Source: Adineta ricciae (taxonomy: Eukaryota; Rotifera; Eurotatoria; Adinetida; Adinetidae). From it: a stretch of 64,000 nucleotides of DNA. Location of the stretch: the NCBI GenBank assembly GCA_905250025.1, contig CAJNOJ010000078.1, positions 186,001-250,000 of the forward strand. Reading direction: 5' to 3'. The notes beneath the pieces were generated by a model, which had not been told where the DNA came from, made no database searches, and saw only the letters and a list, made by a program, of their open reading frames with translations. The position numbers and the translations under genes were made by a program. Shown here piece by piece: positions 466 to 45,232 of the stretch. Within the stretch, counting starts at the first letter, position 1, and each line of letters begins with the position of its first letter.

Positions 466-3400
466 ATGGAATTCTGGCGCAAATTAAAATTACGATGGGT
501 AATTATCATTCTTTACTAATCAATCCTAATCTGATAACCGTAGAATAAACATACACACAAACACACATAAAAACTAACTCGATTGAAGATTTCGTTTTTG
601 AAAACTAATCAGTTAACTGTCTCATTTCTTCGTCTCCTTTTTCTAATTTAGGATTCCAATGTGACAATCGTCTTAGACGATTATACTGCACGTAGTCCAC
701 AAGAATTAACTGTAAGCAAAGGGCAGCACGTACGAATAGTTCAAAGACAACTGTCACATGCACCGGATTGGTGTCTTATACGCGTCTTAAACGATCAACA
801 TCATCATCACCACCACAATCAATCGAGTCCGTCTTCACTCGCTGCGTCATCGACAACGATCACAAATGTGGTGCCGGACTTATCGTTACCTTCGAAATAT
901 AGCGAAGGACTCGTTCCTGCTGCGATTCTGAAACTGACCAAGGCCTCCTCGTCGAATCTTCAACTACCGCCACCATTAACTCTTCCAATAATTACCAATA
1001 AAAGTGAACAAGGTAATTTTATTTGTGTTTTCTCAGGCGGAATCTACAATTAGTTGGATCATTAGTTTTGCCTTTAATCAAATCTTCAATAGGATTATTC
1101 TACAACCAAACTACGAAGCTCTTTTGGGAATAAATAATTAACTGAAGTGAGAAGCGATCCGATGAGGGAGATCGAGTCTATCGTATTAAAACTTTCTTTC
1201 ACGTAAACTAACATATGAGAACACAATATGTCTGCGACATCGATACCGTGATGAAAAATTCCTTTTCTGTCTAGCTGCAAATTCTCGTTGCAGCAAGTTG
1301 AACGAATTGGCCTGCTTTGAAATCCATTGCTCCAAACTTTCCATGTTCACATTTTTATTTCAGAACTGAAATGATAGCGTTATTAGATGGTGAAATTAAC
1401 TGTATTTATTTCCTATTATTGCAATGATTAGATGTTGACGAGCGTAGTTAACTTTTCAGAAATGATCCTAGACGACAGTTTTTCTCGTCGAATAGCATGT
1501 TCGGCAAATGTTCTGGGATAGAGCGCAAGAAAAAAAACCGACTTCGCTTGCATCAACTCTATAATCAATATACTGTTTATATTCCGGTAGATTTCATCAG
1601 AGGTTAAATGTAACATAATGATTATCATTGTGTAGAAAATCCAATTGATGGAAGACTGTCTCCAGCGATTAAATCTTCGCTGGTAGACTAGCTTTATTAG
1701 ACAATTTCCATGCTTCTCTCCATGCAGAAGATGAATTGATTCGCGATGACTGTCTATCTATATCGTCCAATAATCATTGAATTATTTCAATAGAATTACA
1801 CTTTATCGTATGATTAATGATACTTGGACGTTGTTCTAGTTTAACTGAAGAATCGGAGAAAAATTTTGTCTGAAAACTAGTTGAAGACAACAAGGAGGGA
1901 CACATTTCTTTCGATAATCGAAGACATCGACGGATATCGAGTCGATGATGACGATAAGTGCGAGTAGTTTGTGTTGTTCCGTTTCCTGTCAATAAAAATT
2001 TCCACTTTTATCGGTGACGAAGTTGTTTTTTTTTCTTCTTCTGTTTGAAAAGTGAAAGCGAGATTTAGCGATTAAATATGCTCCGAAATTGATTCATTTA
2101 TAATTCATGAGTTGCTTTCGCCGGTTTAATACTAATAAGACAAAGTCTGTCCCTTTTTTTTTTCTGTGCATAAATATCCAGGCCTTCGAGAGGGAATTCG
2201 ATATTTCATTGTGCATTCAGAGCGAATCTATACGAGGCGAAGGTTATGTCGACTTGTGCCTTTTACAAATGGATCAAATCTCGAGATTCGTCCGATATTA
2301 GTAAAACAGAATACACGAGTAATTCTTATCTACATTCTTTATTTAGATGAACTTTCCAGTAAAATCGATGAATCCCAATGTCGTTCACCTCCGTCAACGT
2401 TTCAACTCAACAAACGAAAATCTAGTTTCCGGTTAGTCGATTTCATCATTTTCTAGTCATGATCTCTTCGCTATTGTAGAAGAATTCTCAAAAATCCCGT
2501 TCGACGTCTGAGCTTGAAAGATAATAGTATCATCAAAGATGCGAAAGTCACCAGTCCTACAGACTTAATCGCTAGCGCAAACACAATTTCGCCGGAAGAT
2601 AATCATCACACAGATCCTGTGCATAAACGACCACCGTTGGCTTTCAATTCAGCAAATTCCAGAAAATTGAAAGTATATATACAAAATGCGAGCTAAATAC
2701 ACACATAACTGCTTGTCTTTGTTTGTTGTTCAAGGCATTTACGTTCGCAGATACAGCAGATTTGACGTCATATCCTGATGGAACGGTATGTTATCTTTTC
2801 TATTTTCAATGAGACTATTTCCGAATGTGAAGACGAAGTTTGCAATTAGTTTTTGTCGACAAAAGAAAACGAGAAATGTTTCTCCATGCATTGACTTTCA
2901 TTAGCATAGAAATAACACTTCGCTTTTTTCATTTCTTCTATCTATTATATAATCTTCTGCGCTAGATATACACATATAACTATATATATAATACATGAAC
3001 ATAGAACGAGAACAAAAATAGGATAACAGTAATGTAATGCGTATGTATAGATCTGTTACGTCGTCATCATTCTCATCATATTCTTTCGTATGACTCCTAA
3101 CTACTGTCCTCATCTTATCGATAAATATATACGCATTCTTTGTGCAGTACTTTCATCCCAATGATCATTTCTGTACATTGAATATAACTTTTCAAACATG
3201 CCTGGCCTTCCATGGACAAAAAAGAACCGTTTCGTGTCGTCGAAAAAACAGAGTAGTCAAGATAATGTAAGTTTTTGCCTCTCTCTCTCTCTCTGCTCTT
3301 TTTCTTGTTACAAATGAAAACTCGACGGGTGGTTTTCTCTATATAAATACAACATCGATATACATATACAATGTTGCATTGGCATCTTTTTTTTACTCGA

Positions 3401-6400
3401 TTTTCTCTTAGAATCCTTTGAGTAAATCAATTGATAACGATGGCCTCACTGGTTTCTACAAAATGACAGATTCATCATCATCATCCAACGCTGCACCAAT
3501 CATTTCGCCAGTAGATAACGTAGAAACTGCTTGCATTGAAATCCCACTATCTCTTGATATACAATCACAACTTAAATTAACAAATGGTGGAGATTCACTT
3601 TCTCCACCAGCTGTAAGTAATCAGATTTACTCTAGTACGCTGTCACATTGTCTATTCGTCTGAAGATCAGGTGACGTCAAAGAAAAATAGCAACATCAAA
3701 CCTCAGACCTCGACTATGATTAGTAGTGCGAGTAACAACAAGAGAGGAAGTTGCCCTTTACTGTTTCTTCTTCGGTTTTATTTCTATGTATAATATAGTG
3801 CTAAACAATGCTTGCCGTTATCTCGACACATCCATTACATACTTATGTAAAGAAGGCAACAGCAGGATAGTGTCGTTAATCAGAAGCAAAAATAGAACTC
3901 TCTTAGTATATGTTTGTATGTCATCAATGTTCAAATATAAACATACACATTTTTTTTTCGGGGTTCATTAATCATAGTCTTGGAAAGAACATAAAAATGA
4001 AGAGAGTCAAGATAATGACACAATTGCTTAGATCGGGCTGAAGAAATAACAACATATTGTCGTTCAGTGTGCGAACGAGCATTTCTTTCGTCATCTAATT
4101 GCTTTGCTTGTTGCTGATACTTCATTAGCTGGCAACGAGCGAATGCATACACACGCGCAAGCAACTCTGTATATATATATGTGTGTATATATATATACAC
4201 TAGAATATATATGTGTAAGCGGAAAGCAGTATAGAAACGAGAACGAGCGCGTTCGTTTCGGAATAATCGCTGTAATACTATTAGACGAGCGAACGAGGCT
4301 AAACAACACAGAACAAGACGATGGTGCTTGTATTTTCCTTCTCTTTCCTTTCTTGAGTTTTTTTGCATTTCTCGTTTCCTTACTGTCTAATGTCTACTGT
4401 CGACGTCTTTTGTGACATTTTTGTTTAATGGAAAGACAACGACGAGAATTGTGCTAACACTAACAACATCTTTTAGTAATCCGACGTGCACTTTATTCCT
4501 GAGCATCTGTCTTTCAGCTCATCAGAAACCTATTAGATAGAAAAAGTCAGTACGGAGATCAACACCGTTGTTAGGAAATTGGTCAATACACTTGCTCTGG
4601 ACTCTTCGTCCAGAAGCACTAGTGGAGACCTTTCAGCACGTTTACGAAAAGTACGCACAGCACCATTAGCATCAATTAGTCCAATTGACGATAATTCAGT
4701 CATCGCACGACTTGTTCAACACGTTGTAAGCAGATCATTTTTCTTTTTCTTTTTCAAAAGAGCAAATCTTATTAGCGTGAACGAAATGACATCTTTGCGT
4801 GCTATAATGTTTCTTTTTTTGTATCTTTAGGCACCAATCAATGTTGTTTCTGCCCTTTCAGCAAGTGATTTTCATATCCCAGCTGCCTTGTCAATAGAAA
4901 CACCACCTGCCGAGGAAATTTCCTCTATGAAGATGCCCTCAACGTCGACGATAACTGTGATTTCGAATGATAGTCAAAGTGAACCAACAGATGAAATATC
5001 CTACAATGACGCCGATCAAACGACTCTATCATCGTTTGCAACCATTGACGAGCCCATCGATGATAGAACCAAATACGGCGAAAAAAGAAGGTAAGAGCAT
5101 CGAGTGAAACTCTGTTTCGGAATATTTTTTCTGACAAACAACTTTCTCTCAGGCATAATATCGTCGAATTGATTGAAACGGAAAAGGAATATGTGAAAGA
5201 TCTAGCCTTAATTGTGGAAGTAAGATTGACATCGTTTCACGTCCATCAGAGAGATTCATTATTATTCATAGGGATATATGAACATTCTCGAAAATGATAA
5301 AGAAATCAAAAAGCCAACGGGATTGTGTGGCCGGGAGCGCGTTGTTTTCGGTAATGTGCAAAGAATCTATGAGTTTCATCGCGAGTAAGTTAATTGATTT
5401 TCTCGATATCTGAATTATGACCTCTTTTCTTTCAGTACATTTCTTCCTCAGCTTGAACAATGCATTGAAAGCCCGAATATTCTCGGTCGATTATTCACCG
5501 TGAGTATCCTTCTATAAAACTCGTATCGATTGTCAATCTGCTTTCTTCTAGACAAATCGATTCAGTCCATATGTTCGCTACTGTGAAAATAAACCACGTT
5601 CGGAATACATCGTTTCCGAATATCACGATTATTTCGAAGTAAGTCGTTTTTGTAATGAGTAACGTTTATATTTGGATAGAAAACATCGTCAGAGAACGAT
5701 TCCCTCGAGACAATTGAAACGCATCTGGTCGAAGTAAATGAAAGAGAAAACGACGAGAAATGTTCTAATGATGAATAGTTATTTGCGTTAAGAAAACGGA
5801 TAAGAATAGCAGAAAAGTCAAAGTCATGATCGTTCGTCGCTGTCTTCCTTTCTTTTATTTTTGTTCAACTAGAAAAAAAAATTTCCGCCCGAGACAGCAA
5901 AAACAATTTTCAGAAGATTAATTATTCTCTTCAAAAACACAAGCTCTTTCCTTTTTCCGGAAGAAAATTTATGACTTATATTGAATAGAAATAAGCACGA
6001 ACAGACTCAATCTAGGCCCCGAATGATTAAAATTATTCTTAGGACGGCAATAAATGAATCCGAATGTGTTGATCAAATTTTACTTGAGGGGAAATCAGTG
6101 CCTAGCAGGTCTTATTGACTCGAGATCACTGTTCGAAAGATATTTCTCAGCGAGTATATGTGACCCAGCATGAATGTCTTGATAATCAACAACACATGTG
6201 ATGTTTAGAAACTTGTTTATGATTAGAAGAAGATACTCTCAATCTAACACGATTTGCCTTCACAATAAATAGATAATGATGATGATAATTGCCTGTGAGG
6301 CTAATTCGATCAATTGAATTATCGTTTTCTAGGAAATTCGTAAGAAACTCGGTCAAAAACTACTTGTCTCAGATTTATTGATTAAACCTGTTCAACGTAT

Positions 6401-31657: not shown

Positions 31658-33221
31658 ATGGTTGATAGTCCAACAGTTGATGAACAACCTGCAAGTGAGA
31701 TTTAGCATGATTTGTGCACACAGATTTCTATATTCGTCTATTCTAGCTCGTCGATCGATTCGATCATGTCGTTTATCAACAGTTAAATCTAAACCACCAG
31801 TTGAAAAGCCAGTCGAAGAGCCTATTGCCGATGACAATGAATTCGAAGAAGAAGAAGAAGAAGATCCATCTGATTTATTTCAAGTAGGAGACATTTTATG
31901 GGCCCGAGTAGTCGGTAATCCGTGGTGGCCAGCGTTGGTTTATGGTAAAACACCGCTAAATTCGATCTAATGGCAAACTATCATTGTTTCGTCTAGGCTC
32001 GTACTACGAAGATAAAATTCATACAAAAATTATGAAAACCGCTCGACGTGGAAAGAGACGTACGAACATTCTCTCCAAGATTTATCTTCGACATAAGATT
32101 GATTGTTTCAGGTGCATATTTTGTTTACTTTTTCGGACCTGATTTTGAGTACGCATGGTTGCAAACTAATGCTCTTATGCCTTATGCTGGTCTGGAAGAT
32201 TTCATAAGGCACGCGGAAACATCTATACAAAATGTTGGTGATCTTTTCTTCGAACATACAAAATTGACCTTGCTGTTTGTTTTGTGCTTCAGGCATCACG
32301 CAGAGGAGAGCAGGGTGCATTGGCAAATCGTTTTGAATTGAAAGTCACTGGTAGTAAACGAGCCGACTGGTAAGAATGTTTGAAACAATTTCGATCCGAT
32401 TTTTCGATTTCTTCCTTAGGGATAAAGCTATTGAAGAAGCCAATGAAGCATTGAAACTATCTCGAGAAGAGCGTGTGAAAAATTTCGAAGAATTACTGAA
32501 AAAAATCTTAAAGAATGCTGAAGGTTTAACTTAAGCTCTTTGTGTAATCAGACATTTCATTCTCATTGATTTAGAAAACAAATCAACCAAGCGAAGACAT
32601 AGTTCCGGAACGGCACGACCATCCGTAACTATTGACTGTCCAATCATCGGACATATCATCTCTATCTTTTTTTCTTTCTCATCTAGAGAAGAACTCTATC
32701 ACCATCCTCATCGGGAAATAAATCAACAACTCGTTCATCAGTGAAACGACAAAAGACAAGCATTACGGTAGTCTATTCAAACTAGCATTCAACACATAGA
32801 AAACCTATCGTTGTTTTCAGCCATTAATAGCCTCGACAACTTTGTTACATGTTGGTCTACCTACGTTAACTAAACGTGAAGAAAAACGACTTATCAACGA
32901 TCTTCTCACTCATCCCAAAGGCGAAAATTTCAAATTGAATGAAGCACAAGCATTCGCATGTCAGTTAGCTAGGAATATAATCAAAGAGAACTCTCACTAT
33001 GATATGTCCTGTGTACAAATCGAATGGTTCTATGGTAAATGTCTTGTTCTCGATACTCACTTGTTTGTCATTTGTGTCGAATAGATTTTCTTCTCAATCA
33101 TTCAGAAATAGTTTCCAAATATTCTCATTGGTTTCATGATGAAATCAAACCTATCATGGACGATTCAATCTATTTGAAACAATGCCAATTGCGAGATATG
33201 ATCATCAATGCCAAAAAATAG
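31658..33221 (+). CDS. PWWP-domain protein, tandem copy A
   Basis: Probable chromatin reader. The start ATG 31658 (MVDSPTVDEQP) splices to 31747. A poly-Glu run (31846-31863) precedes the PWWP domain: VGDILWARVVGNPWWPALVY, then after introns AYFVYFFGPDFEYAWLQTN and YAGLEDFIRHAE. The usual post-PWWP helix follows (DWDKAIEEANEALKLSREER), then a Ser/Arg-rich linker. From about 32820 there is a C-terminal block of about 115 residues that I cannot name (LPTLTKREEKRLINDLLTHP, IEWFYDFLLNHSEIVSKYSH). It recurs in copies B and C. Stop at 33219-33221, with AATAAA at 33261. PWWP folds bind methylated histone lysine and DNA. The function of this family is unknown. Confidence 0.82.
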
Positions 33222-33260
33222 TTTATCTCTTTCTTATTTTTGTGTACATTGTGTAATCAC

Positions 33261-33266
33261 AATAAA
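33261..33266 (+). terminator. poly(A) signal of PWWP copy A
   Basis: AATAAA 40 bases after the copy A stop and 64 bases before the copy B start, so cleavage and the next trans-splice acceptor (TTCTTGTAG at 33321-33329) would be very close, as in operons. Confidence 0.55.
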
Positions 33267-33329
33267 AAGTCATTTATTATTCTTACGATGAGTGCAATAC
33301 GGAAATAAACGATCAATCTATTCTTGTAG

Positions 33330-35031
33330 ATGACGAATTCAACAGAGAAATGTAACATGGCAGAACTCCTTCGAGAGAAATGACGGACTAGCTCGTTTAT
33401 TTAGGTAAAACTCAATTGAAACGAAAACAAGTGGATGATGATATACCGGATTCTTCGATATTCGATATTTTGGAAAATGGCTTTCAGATCGGAGATATGG
33501 TTTGGGCAAAACTTAATGGATTGACATGGTAAGATATCGGATTACGAGTAGTTTTTATGATAAGATGTACTTTTAGGTGGCCAGCTTTTGTCTACGGTAA
33601 ACAGACGATCTCCACAGATGATAAATGACCATTTTACAATCTAGGCTGCTTTTCGGACGATGGTAATTACGTTAAAGTAATATGTAAGTCATTCATTGAA
33701 TAAATTATCTACAATTCATTGCCTAATTTGTAGCAAAACCTGGATTACCGACGAAAAAGCAATATTTCATCTACTCTTTTGGCTCTCATTTCAAAGTATG
33801 TGATCAAAATCTATTGCTTATTGATCTATCGATTAGTTCTAGTATTTATGGGTTCACGAAGCATGTCTTCATCGATACGAAGGTCTAGACGAATTTCTAG
33901 TATATTCAGAACAAAAGGCTAAACAAGTACTGGTGTACATTTGATAAAACACGTTCGATCAATGTAATATTTCCTTAGGCATCAACGAAACAAGTTGAAG
34001 AGAAAATACGTAAAAAGTTCAAAATTAATATATCTGAAGAATTACATCCATTCTGGTAGAATTTTTTTGTAAAATTTCGTATACAGCTTTGATTGATGAT
34101 AGGAAACAAGCGATAAACGAAGCCAATGAATTGTTAACTCTGCCAACAAACATGCGCATGAGCGCATTTCAGAAAATAGTTCATCGATTTATCGATGAAA
34201 CTAAAAATTCAGTTACGTATCAAATTAAAGAACAAGTGCCATTATGCGATAACTCAAACGATGAAGTTCAACAAGAACTACGAGTAATTATTTCAGTCAA
34301 ATGATTATAAAAAACAATCGATTCAAACGTTTTCGTCGTCACGCAGTTTATCGAAACGGACATTCGTGAGATCAGATGCATTTGAAAAAGTCAAACGAAC
34401 ATTACCATACCCTTCGATTCTGAGTAGTATAAGAGAGACTGAACAAGTAACAAAAGCAACAGTAAGATCCGCTTTTCATCAAACCTGTTTTCACTTTCAT
34501 TTGTATTTAGTCACGATTATTGCAAGTGGCAACAACGAATGAACTAGATAATGATGTTGTTGTTCTACGACTAAATTCATCCACGCGACCTTCTTCTGTG
34601 TCACTAACAGCAGCTATTCGTCATTTTCTTGATAAAGGTATGTACTTTCTTCTACAAACTTCATTGTAAATTCAACGATTATCTCAGGCCTTCCATCATT
34701 AACTCTCTACGAAGAGATTTGCCTCGTTAATCAATTGATTCATCATCGATCAGGTGCATCATTAACGTTCACGGACGCTCAGTTGTATGTTGAACAATAT
34801 GTCATTCGTATTGCCTTACGAAATTTTCGTCATAAAATGTTATACGTCCAAAGTGATTATTTCTATGACTTTTTACTAAAATATCCTCAAATTATTCTTA
34901 AACATCGCCAATGGTTTCAAGATTTTCAGCCGACTTTAATGCCAACAAATACAGATAGAATTCATTTGAAAAAATGGCAATTAGCAACAATATTACACGC
35001 TCATTGGAATCTAGAGCGACGTTTATATTAA
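33330..35031 (+). CDS. PWWP-domain protein, tandem copy B
   Basis: Second member of the triplet, starting 109 bp after copy A. ATG 33330 lies directly behind TTCTTGTAG. Exon 1 (33330-33351) joins 33405 in phase (MTNSTEKCKTQLKRKQ). PWWP: IGDMVWAKLNGLTWWPAFVY, then YFIYSFGSHFKYLWVHEA and YEGLDEFLVYSEQ. The helix AINEANELLTLPTNMR and a linker follow. The shared C-terminal block reads LPSLTLYEEICLVNQLIHH, FYDFLLKYPQIILKHRQWFQ and HLKKWQLATILHAH. The third residue of the usual helix start (W-x-x-A) is kept. It is diverged from A and C at most positions outside the core, so the duplication is not recent. Confidence 0.8.
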
Positions 35032-35168
35032 ATTTTTATATTCCATAGGTTTAGATTATATGAAATACTGTAGAAAGTTGTTTATGAAAATTTTCAGTAT
35101 TTTTCTCGTCATGATAAAGAGATAGATGTCATTTGAACAAATATGTTTTCCTTTCAGATTGTACATTT

Positions 35169-36792
35169 ATGACGACAGATCTTACGTCTCCAGGTACATT
35201 GTAAAATTCTTCAAAAATTGCTTGAATTTCTGAATTCTTTGTAGAATCGACGTCACAAAAACGTCTGCGACGTATAAAACAAGACCCGCAATTTATTTTT
35301 GAACATATTAGTAAGACGGTCGATTCAACACCTGTTGTAAACAAACAAAAGCCAAAAATCGTTATTTCCACTAATGATACTGTTCCCGGTGCTGATCTTT
35401 ATGAGCCTGGCGATGTTGTTTGGTCGAAACTTGGTAGCTTCCCTTGGTGGCCAGCGCTTATTGTCTGTAAAATTTTCACTTCGAGAAGGAAAACTCTCTA
35501 CTAAATGCATGTGTCTTTTAGTATCGATCGAATGGTGAAGGAGGTTCACATACAAGAACGCTAAGTAATATAGTCGGATAAATACTAAGATAAAGCTAAT
35601 TTGGATATCTTTAGATTCGAATAATAAACCCAAACGACAATTCTTCGTTTATTTTTATGGAAAATATCTTGAATACGCATGGTTGTCAACGCGTTCGTTG
35701 TTAAAGTATTCCGGTTTGAACGATTTTATCGAAAATGCTGAAGCCGCTGTACAGAAGGTAAGAGCCCTCTCTCTCTCCCCTAGTTTCTTTCTAATCTCAC
35801 TGCCTAGTCAGGCGGTGACAAAATCCGAAAAGGTCGAATTGGCAAATCGCTATCAATTGAAAGTTTCTGTGAAAAAACGCGTGCAATGGTAAACAAATTT
35901 CGATAGATGAAACCTAATATGAATTGAATTAATCTCAGGGATGGAGCCATTGAGTTAGCTGATCGTGCGTTAACCATGACGAGAGATGAACGTATTGAAG
36001 AATTCAAAGATCTGTTAAATGCTGCAAAAACCAACAAGAAATCGTCGAAAAATAGTATGAAATAGAGTTTCGAGCCATAAATACTATTTCAATATGTTCT
36101 TCTAGGTAACCGTCGTCGAAATATTTCTATTGAAAGTACACTCGATGAACCAGTACTAAAGAAACGACAGAATGGAAAGAACGCGAATTCAACAGTAAGA
36201 ACTCTTGCTGTAAGAAATATCTCCATAACTATCTATTTAGGTGACGAATTCGGATATAAGCCGTCGGAAATCCTCGACATGTGTAAAACAAAGTGAAATA
36301 GAATACGAGTATCCTGTCCTGCCGATGAATCCAACAGTTTTGCCTGCACTCCGTCATTTTATTCAAGCGAACATACCTCCACTATCGAATTATGAACAAA
36401 AACAAATCGTTGAAGGTCTTCTTCATCACCCGAATCACGAAAATCTAACATTTAACGAAGCAGACAGATTTGCTCGTGACAAAGCAATCGAAATTGGTAA
36501 GATCAGTCTGCACGAAAGAAAATCCTATCAAAATCTTTACCATTACACTTTAGTCGAAGAAAACTACCACCATCGAATGGATGTTATTTCACCTGAGTGG
36601 TTCTATGATTCCATTCTTTTAAAATATCCTTCTCTCATCTTCAAATATCGTTCATGGTTTACAAACATTGAACCGCATGTCATTCCCGATGAAACTGACG
36701 CTCTGAAACTAAAACAGTGGCAAATCGCGCTGATGATTCAAGCACAAATAAAACATGAACAGCAACAGTCACAAATAATAGATAGTACATAA
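35169..36792 (+). CDS. PWWP-domain protein, tandem copy C
   Basis: Third member, 137 bp after copy B, with CCTTTCAG ending 11 bases before ATG 35169. First exon MTTDLTSP joins SQKRLRRIKQ. PWWP: PGDVVWSKLGSFPWWPALIV, then FFVYFYGKYLEYAWLSTR and YSGLNDFIENAE. Post-PWWP helix WDGAIELADRALTMTRDER. The C-terminal block is the longest of the three (IPPLSNYEQKQIVEGLLHHP, NEADRFARDKAIEI, SPEWFYDSILLKYPSLIFKY, LKLKQWQIALMIQAQ). Pattern shared by all three: WFYD, a run ending KYPxI, KYRxWF, then a Trp/Gln helix. It is followed after 225 bp by NOL10 on the same strand. Confidence 0.82.
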
Positions 36793-37017
36793 TATCCTAT
36801 GTATTTCGTTTCATGTATACAAAAAAAAAATATTTCGAAACAAAACAGATGAATTTATTTTCATTTTTGTTGTTGTTGTTGTTGTTCAAATCGATTTATC
36901 TGTTTCTATTTTTAATGTGCGAAAAAAAAACCAATAAGTTCCGTGTGAATTTGGTTTATTTTGGCAATCAAACTAGAAAATATTCTTCTGTTTCTCGATT
37001 CAGTTTCAGATTAAACC

Positions 37018-39886
37018 ATGCAGGTAACTAATGTCAACGATGTTCGAGTGTATAATCTAACATGTGGCCAACAAGCAGCGCCGGAAGTATGTCGAATATA
37101 TTCGATGACGTTTAATATTTTTGCTCTTTGAACTTTAGTGGATGGATGATACAAAAAAGAAGAAATCTAAGAAAGAAACAGGTAGATTTGGTATTGAATT
37201 ACACTTGCGTTTGAGTTCTTATGGGAAAATCTTTAGATGACAAACAACGAATCGAACTTATCCAAGGCTTTGAAATGCCTATGTTAAGCAATTCAATATC
37301 GATGACACGCGATGGGCAGTATATTTTCGTCACAGGTAATTCTATTCACTGCATGAAACGATTACAATTCGCGAGTTTATGTAGGTTCTTATAAACCACG
37401 TGTTCGTTGTTATGATGTCAATGAATTATCGTTAAAATTTGAACGATGTTTTGATCACGAATGTATACAAATGAAAATTCTTTCTGAAGATTATTCCAAA
37501 GTAAGACAAAGGTGAATTGGGCGGTGAAAGATTATTTCTTCATAATTAGATTGTTTTTATGCATGCTAATCGATATATTGAATTTCATTCACAAGTCGGT
37601 AATTATCATACGATTCGAACTCCGAAACAGGGACGACAGTTTGATTACCGATATTCATCCTGTGATTTGTATTGTGTCGGCGCAACGTGAGAATACGATT
37701 TCACTTATGCTTTCAAGTATTTTAATACCATTTGTATATTGAATTGAAGGAATGAAATCTACCGGTTTAATCTGGAACAAGGACAATTTCTTGAACCCAT
37801 ATCAAGCAAATCACCGTATGATTGATTATCGAAAGTCGCGACTGCATTCATTTGACAGTGTGATACTTTTTTCAGAGGTTTTAACACCTGTCAATTCAAT
37901 CCCGAACATGAATTATTTGCTTGTGGTTCTGTAGAAGTAAGTAAATTTTCTAGATGATATTCAATAGTCCAGGTAATACTCTCCACTTTCTTAACGCAAT
38001 AGGGAGTACTGGAATGTTATGATCCCCGAGCACGAAGTCTTGTAGGACAAATCGACTGTGCTGTTTTTGCAAATAGCAATAGTGGTAACAGGTAGATGAT
38101 CGTATTCAACTTACGGATTGATCGTTCGAAGATTTTTCTTTTAGTTTACCAGCGATTTCTTGTCTTAAGTTTAAAGATGCACTTAACTTATCTGTTGGTA
38201 CGAGCACTGGGCAAGTAAGTTCGAAGTCTCTCTTCGCAGTATCTATTCGAGCGATTCTTTATCATTAGATATTACTATTCGATATACGATCGAATAAACC
38301 ATATTTTATTAAAGATCATAACTACAATCTACCAATCAAACGTATTGATTTTCACACTCAGAACGACGATTATATTCTTTCAATTGATAAGAAAATATGC
38401 AAAATATGGAACCGACATACTGTATGTATTGTTTTCTATTGTGTGTGTAAATTGCATTTTAAACATGTAGGGTAAAAATTTGACGTCTTTGGAACCTGGT
38501 ACACCTTTGAATGACATGCTCAATATACCTGGAAGCGGTCTTATATGTCTAACGAATGATTCTCCCAAAATCTTTGTTTATTATATTCCAGTATGTATTC
38601 ACAAATAGATGCTGGAATGTCTGGTTATACGTGCAATTCATTTGTAGACATTAGGAAATGCGCCGAAATGGTGCACATTCTTGGACAATATTACCGAAGA
38701 ACTCGAAGAAAAACCAGCAGATACAGGTGGAATGATTGTTTTGAACAGCACGAACCATTACATTTTCATTTTTTATTTTAGTTTATGATGATTATAAATT
38801 CTTAACGTTGAAAGATTTGGATACACTTGGTTTGTCTCATTTGATCGGTTCGGATCTTCTTCGCGCTTATATGCATGGTTATTTCATGGATATTCGACTA
38901 TATAATCAAGTGAATACCATTTAGCTCGCACTGCTCTTTTGTGAACAAGTTGATCGTTTTTGTAGGCGAAGACAGTAGCAGAACCATTTGCGTTTGCTGA
39001 ATATCGTAAGAAGAAATTGCGTCAAAAGATCGATGAAAAACGTGAAAGAAGTCGTGTACCTCTTCCGGTAAATAATTATTTCTTCGCATATCCTTTCAAA
39101 ATTTCTTCTCGTTTTGCAATAGATTGTACCAACGGTTAACAAAGATCTTGCTGAAAAACTTCGACATGATGAAGATGAAACGACAACAAAGAACAAGAAG
39201 AAGAAAGCGAAAAATGCGGAAGATAAAGTTCGTAGTGCAACCGTTCGTATCGAAAAGATTGTTCGTTTCTTTTTTCTCATTTAGATCTCGGCATCATCTG
39301 TACTTAAAGATTCTCGATTTCAATCGCTATTCACCAATCCTGATATGCAAATCGATGTGAATCATGACGCATTCAAAAACATCGCACCATTGGTTTCTCG
39401 TTTGAATAAACAAACAGCTGTTGAAGAAGATGTAGAATCGGTAAGAAAAAACAAATGAAAATAAGTGCTAATGATTTGATCATTTTCTTTAAGATGGAAA
39501 ATGGTGATGAAAACGAAGATTATGACGATGGAGAAGGAAACGACGAAGAAGACGACTTAATGGATGATATTCTCACATCTGATGAAGATGAAGTTGACGA
39601 AAAGAAAGCAGCGGTAACTCCTCGTCGAACAAAATTGGTTCCAGTCGGTGCCGAAGATGAAGGCGATCAGGAAACTCTTCGTTCATTGTCGTTTTCCGAA
39701 CGAGCAAGAAGAACAGCAGACTCCGACAAGTCTACGACATTCACTCACCCATCGGCCACTAATAAGAGTCCGACGAGTACCAAGGAAAAACGAAGAAAAA
39801 GAAACACAGATGACGATGATGATCATCGAAGAAATGTTCGTCGAGCTCCACGTGGTCGAATGAATAGTCGTCGTGGTGAACCATAA
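37018..39886 (+). CDS. NOL10: nucleolar protein 10 (yeast Enp2)
   Basis: WD40-propeller protein of the small-subunit processome, needed for 18S rRNA maturation in the nucleolus. ATG 37018 begins [17 protein letters not shown], the family N-terminus. Propeller segments follow: [70 protein letters not shown] and [11 protein letters not shown]. The conserved NUC153-like part comes next ([45 protein letters not shown]). An acidic and Lys/Arg-rich tail ends at 39886. About 14 exons with short introns. AGTTTCAG lies eight bases before the ATG. Last gene of the operon-like run A-B-C-NOL10. Confidence 0.93.
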
Positions 39887-42545: not shown

Positions 42546-44542
42546 ATGACTGATACAGAAGTAGCTATTTCTGGCAATGGTGGGGCAGGTGGTGATACTG
42601 AAATTGATTTATATGCTGATGTTGTTGAAAATGAACTTGACACAGTACGAGAGTCGTGTTCTTTTCTTGGTTAAATATATTTTTCTGTTTGACATAGGGG
42701 GTGGGAGATGACTATATGACAAATGATGCCCATTTAGTACAAGATACAGATTTATACGATGATGTGATTACAACACAATCGTCGTCAACAGATTTTGCTG
42801 ATATTACAAATATAGTCAATCAAAATCATGTTAAACTTGATCAATCAAATGGTTCGACTGGCCGAAGTACACCATCAAATAGTTACAATGGGAAACGAGT
42901 ATCACTTTACGTTGGTCAATTGACTTGGGTATGTCATTTTTGTGAAAATAATGACGAGTTTGTGTATGCATCGCTGTTTCACTTTTTTACGCTTCTAGTG
43001 GACAACAGATGCTGATTTAGCTAATACAATTCATGATTTAGGCATCACCGATTTGCTTGAAGTTAAATTTCATGAAAATCGTGTTAACGGGCAATCAAAA
43101 GGGTAAAACTAAATATTTGTCTTTCACAAATGAATATGACTGAATGTGTATGTATTCTTTTGATAGATTTGCCGTTGTTACCGTCGCTTCGGAAGCATCA
43201 TCTCGAATGATCTTGGAGAAGATACCTAAACGAGAAATCCATGGACAAAATCCAACTGTTTTGCCTTGTAATAAACAATCGCTCAGTTTTTTTGAAGGTG
43301 TTACTCGTAAAGATGCACCAGTCGAACCTATGCCACCCATGGCTGCACCACCTCGTAAGTTTACATTTGAACACAACAGTATTTTGTCTTATTGAAATGT
43401 CTTTTGTTTGCAGTTCGTCAAATGATGCGTCCACCAGTTGGACTTCCGTTACCGATGCCTCGTGGCGGTCATATGGATGGACCATATCGTTTTCCACATC
43501 AAGGATCGATCATTTTGCCAGGAGCACCACCCGGCATCGCTCGTCCACCAATGCAAGTTGCGCTCGGTCCACGAGGTCATGTACCTGGCAATCAATTAGT
43601 TCTCGGCCGAATGCCCGGTCCACCTTTATCCGGTGTTCATCCACAACAATCCGTTCTCGTTATGCAACGACCTGGTGTCCCACCAGGAGTTAATGGACCT
43701 CCTCTAGTACGCCAACCCATGGCACCTGGTGCACCAGGTATATCCATTCGATAATAATATTATTCCTTTTGATGATTGGAATGTTGTTTCTCTTTGTCTT
43801 CAGGTGTACCTGTCTCTTCTAGTTCTATGACAGTTATGCCTGGTCAACATCCGCCTGGATACTATCCAGGTCAACCAGGTCAAGGCGTAAGTACATCATT
43901 CTTTTTGTATTTACATTCTTTTTTTATATCGATATAATTCTAGCCTCATCCACACGGTGTTCCAATGCCTGGTCAACCACATACTGATCCCTACTATCGT
44001 GGTGTTGATGCTCGTTCTGACCCAGCAAATATGATGCCCATTAGCGAAGCGGAATTTCAAGAAATCATGGAACGAAACAAAACTGTTTCCAGTAGTGCAA
44101 TTGCTCGAGCTGTTCAGGATGCGTCTGCTGGTTAGTTGATTCACTTGTACATATCAGCATCCAGAGATTTCACTGATTTCTTTCAGGCGACTTTGCTACA
44201 GCTATTGAAACCTTAGTGACAGCAGTTTCATTGATCAAACAATCGAAAATCGCCAATGATGATCGATGTAAAATTTTAATCAGTTCTCTCCAAGACACAC
44301 TCAAAGGCATTGAAGATAAATCCTATGGGCAACGGTAAGTATCTATGCATAGGACTACTATGTCGATGAAACGAAGTGATTTATCAATTTTTAGAACACG
44401 CCATCGAAGTCGATCTGGATCACCACGTGAATCTTCGCGTAAGAAGCATCGTCATCGTTCACGTAGTCCGCGTGATCGAAATGAATATCGTCGTAATGAA
44501 GATTATGATGGCAAATATAGCCGTGAACATCGGCGACGTTGA
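42546..44542 (+). CDS. CPSF6: cleavage and polyadenylation specificity factor 6 (CFIm68 type)
   Basis: Large subunit of cleavage factor Im, which binds UGUA through its partner NUDT21 and sets poly(A) site choice in the nucleus. ATG 42546 begins [10 protein letters not shown]. An acidic N-terminus precedes one RRM ([54 protein letters not shown]), which matches CPSF6/7 closely. A long Pro/Gly/Met-rich middle follows. Then comes a conserved helix block ([40 protein letters not shown]). It ends in an RS-like tail ([19 protein letters not shown]) for nuclear import and SR-protein contacts. Domain order and length are typical. Confidence 0.95.
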
Positions 44543-45232
44543 AAAATTGAAAGCATCATTTTTTCATTCTTCTCAACTAAAAACAAACAAACATGCGATC
44601 TGGTAAGCTGTTCAATTAGTCATTTGTTTTTCATTCTCTGTGTTCAATTCTTTTTGAAATTTGTTTATTTTTTATGCTCTTCACTATGTGTACGCGTATT
44701 TTTTCCTCTCACTGCCCTCTCTCATGTCAGCTATGAAATTCAGTGCAATCATTTTGATTCGACTTATGCTCACATGTCGATATGCACATATATACACACA
44801 CTAACAATCAACTATGTGTTTTTTCTATAACTTTTTTTTTCTGTTGCTGACGCAATGAGTCAAATATAGTCTCTGTTATTTTTTTTGCCCTTTGGAATAC
44901 ATCACTGTTTATACATATACATATATACATATACATATTGCATATATATATTTTTTTTTATAACTATACGTGAATCTCGTCATGATTGGAGCTCTGCTCA
45001 ATCCGCGCTGCAAGTGCATGATTTTGAACTTGTTGTTCTGTTTCTTTTTTTGTCCCGAATATTTGATGATAAAAAAATAATAGTATTTGATTCGCTTGAT
45101 CAATGTATACAGATAGTAACTTTTCTAAATAATGAATAAATAGTGTCATTTATTTATGTGTTCATCTATATAACCATTTATCGAAACAAATGAAAAGTTG
45201 GCAATAGGAAAACTCATTCCTTTGAGGTGCAG
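44543..45232. other. CPSF6 3' region
   Basis: T-rich 3' UTR-like sequence with TATACA/CATATA runs near 44910-44960. Candidate AATAAA at about 45135. Short frames on both strands are low-complexity. Nothing coding is supported. Confidence 0.4.

Follow-up and report, generated by a model that had tools for sequence, protein, structure and literature searches.

What three neighbouring genes, each combining a PWWP domain with an unfamiliar C-terminal block, might do in the genome of a rotifer is the question raised by positions 31658 to 36792 of the stretch analysed here. This stretch (the window) comprises 64,000 nucleotides of Adineta ricciae DNA, corresponding to positions 186001-250000 of contig CAJNOJ010000078.1 (C78), and the three genes, referred to as g1, g2 and g3, follow one another head to tail in it (Table 1). 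The answer proposed below, to which a probability of roughly 0.55 is assigned, is that they encode readers of methylated histone H3 lysine 36 (H3K36) working as adaptors in the manner of NSD3-short, with a C-terminal helical domain that would recruit or join partners. The genome sampled for comparison amounts to 130 Mb in 1,033 contigs, and the labels C1, C13, C16, C20, C33, C50, C51, C52, C61, C78, C87 and C91 denote contigs of this one assembly.

The N-terminal half of these proteins can be traced to a known module. As the original prediction had claimed, a PWWP is present in each gene, and all three pass the Pfam cut-off (E 5e-13 for g1, 5e-10 for g2 and 4e-13 for g3), but its specific type, that of the PWWP1 of NSD proteins, had been overlooked. 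In phmmer searches of the PDB, the PWWP and the helices that trail it align nearly over their whole length to about residues 220-345 of NSD2 in g1, g2 and g3. The NSD2 values given in Table 1 are whole-chain E values obtained with a chain that carries two PWWPs; NSD2 chains with PWWP1 only score 7.9e-17 to 8.6e-17 (g1), 1.4e-13 (g2) and 1.1e-19 (g3), and NSD3 PWWP1 chains 2.6e-17 and 7.6e-11 for g1 and g2, respectively. MSH6 comes behind NSD2 and NSD3 (about 4e-8 for g1 and g3, 2e-5 for g2), while HDGF-type PWWP chains reach 0.033-0.085 against g1, compared with 1e-16 to 1e-18 for the NSD chains. Since the NSD2 match spans the PWWP together with its helices, the post-PWWP helix, correctly noticed at first as a feature of all three genes, belongs to the NSD PWWP1 module, which is already known. 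The likeness to NSD1, NSD2 and NSD3 thus covers PWWP1 and its trailing helices (MTRDERIEEF in g3, MTREERIEQY in NSD3), whereas PHD, AWS and SET domains are all missing from g1, g2 and g3: the PWWP is the sole Pfam domain above cut-off in the full proteins, and the NSD gene of this genome lies elsewhere (on C50, and near-identical on C33).

The residues forming the methyl-lysine cage of NSD2 PWWP1 are Y233, W236 and F266 (PMC10955146), and by alignment the equivalent positions read F-W-F in g3, N-W-F in g1 and L-W-S in g2. The predicted cage would therefore be intact in g3, partial in g1 and lost in g2, from which it follows that the three copies have probably diverged in function. Judged from these sequences, histone binding may be expected of g1-g3, most strongly of g3.

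Table 1. Genes and domains of the PWWP trio, with positions in the window.
Feature	Position	Strand	Remarks
Gene 1 (g1)	31658-33221	+	10 exons, 9 introns, 360 amino acids; ATG at 31658
g1 NSD PWWP1-type region and post-PWWP helices (spliced)	31881-32588	+	Pfam PWWP; phmmer PDB NSD2 E 2.9e-18
g1 C-terminal block (spliced, intron 33035-33084)	32821-33218	+	leave-one-out HMM E 4e-26; dN/dS 0.086
Gene 2 (g2)	33330-35031	+	11 exons, 10 introns, 398 amino acids; linker intron 34236-34296 uncertain
g2 NSD PWWP1-type region, predicted cage degenerate	33482-34208	+	Pfam PWWP; phmmer PDB NSD2 E 1.3e-15
g2 C-terminal block	34598-35028	+	leave-one-out HMM; dN/dS 0.133; AlphaFold2 model from 34690-35028
Gene 3 (g3)	35169-36792	+	9 exons, 8 introns, 401 amino acids; stop ends 36792; second junction 35462/35522 uncertain
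g3 NSD PWWP1-type region, predicted cage intact	35400-36035	+	phmmer PDB NSD2 E 9.2e-22, NSD3 PWWP1 E 3.4e-20
g3 C-terminal block	36328-36789	+	leave-one-out HMM; dN/dS 0.086; intron 36497-36553 by chance leaves the frame open

The C-terminal block matches none of the families searched. Leave-one-out profiles, tree and charge were computed on a set of 12 block members that leaves out the alleles on C51, the second haplotype copy of the locus. Leave-one-out hidden Markov models (HMMs; E values for a database size of 100,000) recover each of the 12 members (E 2e-6 to 5e-40), which places the shared pattern described in the original prediction well beyond chance, although its motifs are inexact in some copies: KYPxI appears as NHSEI in g1 and KYPSL in g3, K(Y/H)RxWF as KYSHWF in g1, and LLxHP and WFYD as LIHHR and YFYD in g2. 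More generally, L[ST]xxE[EQ] and an EAxxxA helix recur, as does, in most of the members, [EDH][WY][FI]Yx[FI]L. None of the 12 reaches the cut-off of any Pfam family, stray sub-threshold matches being 7TMR-HDED (E 0.023, g1 167-306) and DUF4874 (E 0.018, the member on C20), and the block profile finds a single, unrelated match (E 0.14) among PDB sequences up to E 10, so that the block was rightly described as unrecognised. An AlphaFold2 model made from window sequence alone is all-alpha, with a mean predicted local distance difference test score (pLDDT) of 80.7 in the best of five, and among the matches listed from fold libraries (Foldseek, VIA) none is trustworthy. The net charge of the 12 blocks ranges from -6 to +5, which would fit contact with protein rather than with DNA.

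Two known folds have to be weighed against a new domain. LEDGF and HDGFL2 (the HRP family) are built from a PWWP, a basic linker and a C-terminal helical partner-binding domain, a plan that g1-g3 share overall. Given this similar plan and the all-alpha model, the block could be a helical fold already known for binding partners, such as one like TFIIS-N or the LEDGF IBD, diverged until its sequence is no longer recognisable, and the proteins would then be LEDGF-like. This is unlikely, however, as the PWWP is NSD-type and not HDGF-type (for g1, E 2.9e-18 against 0.033 or worse) and no similarity of the block to the IBD was detected; no IBD, LEDGF or TFIIS-N chain occurs among the Foldseek and VIA matches listed either, which for a model of moderate quality is weak evidence. 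The second candidate is the helix-turn-helix of CENP-B and Tc5 (PF03221), in which case the block would be a strongly diverged descendant of a pogo-like transposase and the proteins would join a chromatin reader to a sequence-specific DNA binder. A W-x3-F helix and the helix preceding it are in register with the block: T..EA..A..I.....S.EWFYDFLLKYP matches the W..F..RH helix of a transposase profile whose relationship to CENP-B is genuine (1hlv, E 1.7e-16), with hhalign P 0.0068 for 8 blocks and 0.013 for 10 blocks, where 1 of 150 column shuffles is as good, and the genome is rich in transposases of this kind, with 52 places at E up to 1. With 12 blocks, however, P is 0.023 and 9 of 200 class-preserving shuffles do as well (more members and a stricter shuffle being applied together), the hhalign probability is 2-6% with the first helix outside the alignment, PF03221 matches none of the 12 blocks, and CENP-B is absent among the structural matches listed. 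The near-neutral or acidic charge of the blocks is, in addition, unlike that of a DNA-binding domain. The resemblance is thus weak, and a transposase origin improbable.

The view that the block is fixed with the PWWP does not hold across the genome. Searches with four block queries (g3, C13, C20 and g1) and a PWWP1 query, followed by reading of the loci, yielded 15 accepted block places, namely g1, g2 and g3, their three C51 alleles, one on C87, C16:708-709 kb, C52:103-104 kb, C52:76 kb and five more (C13:420 kb, C1:600 kb, C13:494 kb, C20:374 kb and C61:438 kb). In 10 of the 15 the block sits behind a PWWP, and in the last five no PWWP was found: their loci, of 7-8 kb each, hold no PWWP1 match at E 0.5 or better, and none of the 9 places from a Pfam PWWP genome search falls on their contigs. 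At C13:420 kb, C1 and C13:494 kb, a Cys/His motif (DGxxWR..C..C..LCxKH) lies upstream of the block on the same strand. Against Pfam it is weakly WRC-like at C13:420 kb and C1 (E 1.6 and 2.4), with THAP at 0.16 in one, and the motif of C13:494 kb has no Pfam likeness. The blocks of C20 and C61 appear to be short proteins consisting of the block alone, each beside a gene that by eye is SLC7-like. Because the block thus occurs in three settings, following a histone reader, following a Cys/His motif and apparently by itself, and in view of its charge and helical model, we infer that it is a partner-binding or self-association module. The idea of a new, perhaps partner-binding domain therefore survives in that no searched family matches it and the partner role is a reading of this kind, and fails in its tie to the PWWP. 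As a separate observation, the Cys/His motif is found in 21 genome places at E up to 0.11, with the block downstream in at least 3 of them, and the two weakly WRC-like members recall the WRC domain of plants.

The spliced models of g1, g2 and g3 are predictions based on GT-AG sites and on the alignment of paralogues, and their reading frames are open throughout. C51 is a collinear copy with 93% identity over 9.5 kb, and its alleles of the three genes keep open frames and GT-AG sites, that of g1 with identical junctions. The coordinates first given for three head-to-tail genes were right. The genes could nevertheless be duplicates that are neutral or in decay and have no function of their own, as might be thought from the homeologous contig C87, which carries one such gene, close to g3, between NTPDase-like and CPSF6-like neighbours, and in 8 kb of which g1, g2 and the NOL10-like gene were not found. 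The open frames and conserved splice sites in both haplotypes, an identity between C78 and C51 of 94.5% in exons against 89.8% in introns, and gene-wide allelic ratios of non-synonymous to synonymous change (dN/dS) of 0.155 (g1), 0.234 (g2) and 0.122 (g3) already contradict decay, which is highly improbable. By region, dN/dS is 0.123, 0.183 and 0.019 in the PWWP1 region of g1, g2 and g3, 0.10, 0.75 and 0.34 in the linker, and 0.77, 0.07 and 0.12 in the N-terminal tail, where changes are few; in the block (ratios in Table 1), 4, 6 and 5 amino-acid changes stand against 11, 12 and 14 silent ones. Constraint on the block is therefore similar to that on the PWWP, and it is weaker on the linkers of g2 and g3. 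Such purifying selection on PWWP and block between alleles bears out the earlier claim that the copies have long been kept. Whole-protein identity to g3 is 38% for g1 and 28% for g2; in the block, g1-g3 and g2-g3 share about 37% and g3 and its C87 counterpart 65%, from which the tandem copies probably predate the C78/C87 duplication, g1 and g2 having been lost from C87.

The closest known parallel to these proteins is a natural isoform. NSD3-short has PWWP1 and no SET domain and links BRD4 to CHD8, showing the reader half acting alone, and a chemical probe exists for NSD3 PWWP1 (PMC8398374). Genes g1-g3 likewise encode an NSD PWWP1 with no SET, the difference being that they are separate genes and not an isoform of WHSC1L1 (NSD3). 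NSD3-short is not known to carry a C-terminal helical block like theirs. Under the adaptor reading, H3K36-methylated nucleosomes would be the docking site of the NSD PWWP1 module. A linker, basic and disordered, would join this module to the all-helical C-terminal domain, which would bind a partner or self-associate and thereby bring the partner to H3K36-methylated chromatin, with the catalytic NSD half supplied by a separate gene.

Several points weigh against this proposal. The cage of g2 looks lost, and at least one copy may thus not read methyl-lysine. The initial genome search gave poor values for the blocks of C20 and C61 (E 0.055 and 0.64), which were accepted through leave-one-out values of 8.7e-13 and 2.3e-6. 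In the tree of the 12 blocks, good support is limited to 2 of the 9 inner branches, and neither PWWP-block nor another arrangement emerges as ancestral. At C52:75-76 kb, PWWP and block are linked by a common strand and a distance of about 0.8 kb, and at C13:420 kb, C1 and C13:494 kb the Cys/His motif and the block by strand and proximity, in both cases without a full gene model. On C91, a PWWP1-like gene (E 5.5e-5) stands without a block, the best block E being 3.5 in 9 kb that include an assembly gap. Low dN/dS also extends beyond the domains, to the linker of g1 and, on few changes, to the N-terminal tails of g2 and g3, and the fold model was built from 5 rows of window sequence, 2 of the 5 models reaching a pLDDT of about 80 and the others 59-64. 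Finally, the BRD4-ET-binding motif of NSD3-short is K-phi-K-phi (PMC11939847), which g1 and g3 lack and which in g2 occurs only within the PWWP helices; g1-g3 are therefore NSD3-short-like in plan, not members of that group.

Some further observations concern relatives and surroundings of the trio. The paralogues at C16:707 kb and C52:102 kb keep PSVKIKL (KIKL) in an otherwise diverged linker, which fits the BRD3/BRD4 ET-binding consensus. The PWWP1-like gene of C91 (339000-348000, about 3501-4112) lies downstream of a kinesin-like gene, is followed by repeats and the assembly gap, and is perhaps truncated. Two more head-to-tail PWWP genes, missed by the PWWP1 query, occur on contig C7 (777000-786000, about 2631-4206 and 4885-6287); by eye, some 140 amino acids that follow the PWWP are almost the same in both, and Pfam gives nothing at E 0.1 for the C-terminal part of the second. 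In the window, the trio is placed between a minus-strand NTPDase-like gene and a NOL10-like gene (both named by eye), with a CPSF6-like gene at 42565-44593. Acceptor-like sequences immediately precede the start codons of g2 (33320-33330), g3 (35150-35169) and the NOL10-like gene (37005-37018), and with intergenic gaps of 108-225 bp these genes are a possible spliced-leader operon; the published rotifer spliced leader has no exact match anywhere in the assembly.

The enzyme itself appears to be encoded elsewhere. On C50 and C33 there are near-identical NSD-type genes, and the exons of the C50 copy encode PHD_NSD, PHDvar_NSD, AWS and SET above the Pfam cut-off, together with a PWWP2 exon; NSD3 is the nearest match of its SET exon (E 1.3e-18, versus 2e-13 for SETD2 and 1.8e-11 for ASH1L). 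With the PWWP1 model, the best values are 0.34 in 12.5 kb of C50 and 0.62 in 7 kb of C33, both on the PWWP2 exon, none of the 24 matches of a genome search with the g3 PWWP1 lies on C50 or C33, and just upstream on C50 there are long opposite-strand reading frames that look like another gene. The writer gene therefore seems to be without PWWP1. NSD proteins that lack PWWP1 occur in other animals too, such as MES-4 of C. elegans, so that loss of PWWP1 alone is not new; the unusual part is the separate reader family. Among the papers listed on rotifer PWWP proteins, bdelloid H3K36 methyltransferases, NSD PWWP1 fission and Mes-4, none describes such a family in its title or the opening of its abstract, and the main text of a bdelloid chromatin paper with an inventory of SET enzymes (PMC8885841) contains neither NSD nor PWWP.

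Taken one step further, and tentatively, NSD may have been split in this genome, with a writer gene that lacks PWWP1 on one side and, on the other, an expanded set of separate PWWP1 readers, all but that of C91 with an undescribed helical domain. As this domain also occurs on its own or downstream of a Cys/His motif, it could be what lets readers, stand-alone blocks and candidate DNA binders come together. If true, the reader half as a gene family of its own would provide a natural test of PWWP1 uncoupled from the enzyme, and the block would be a new domain to name.

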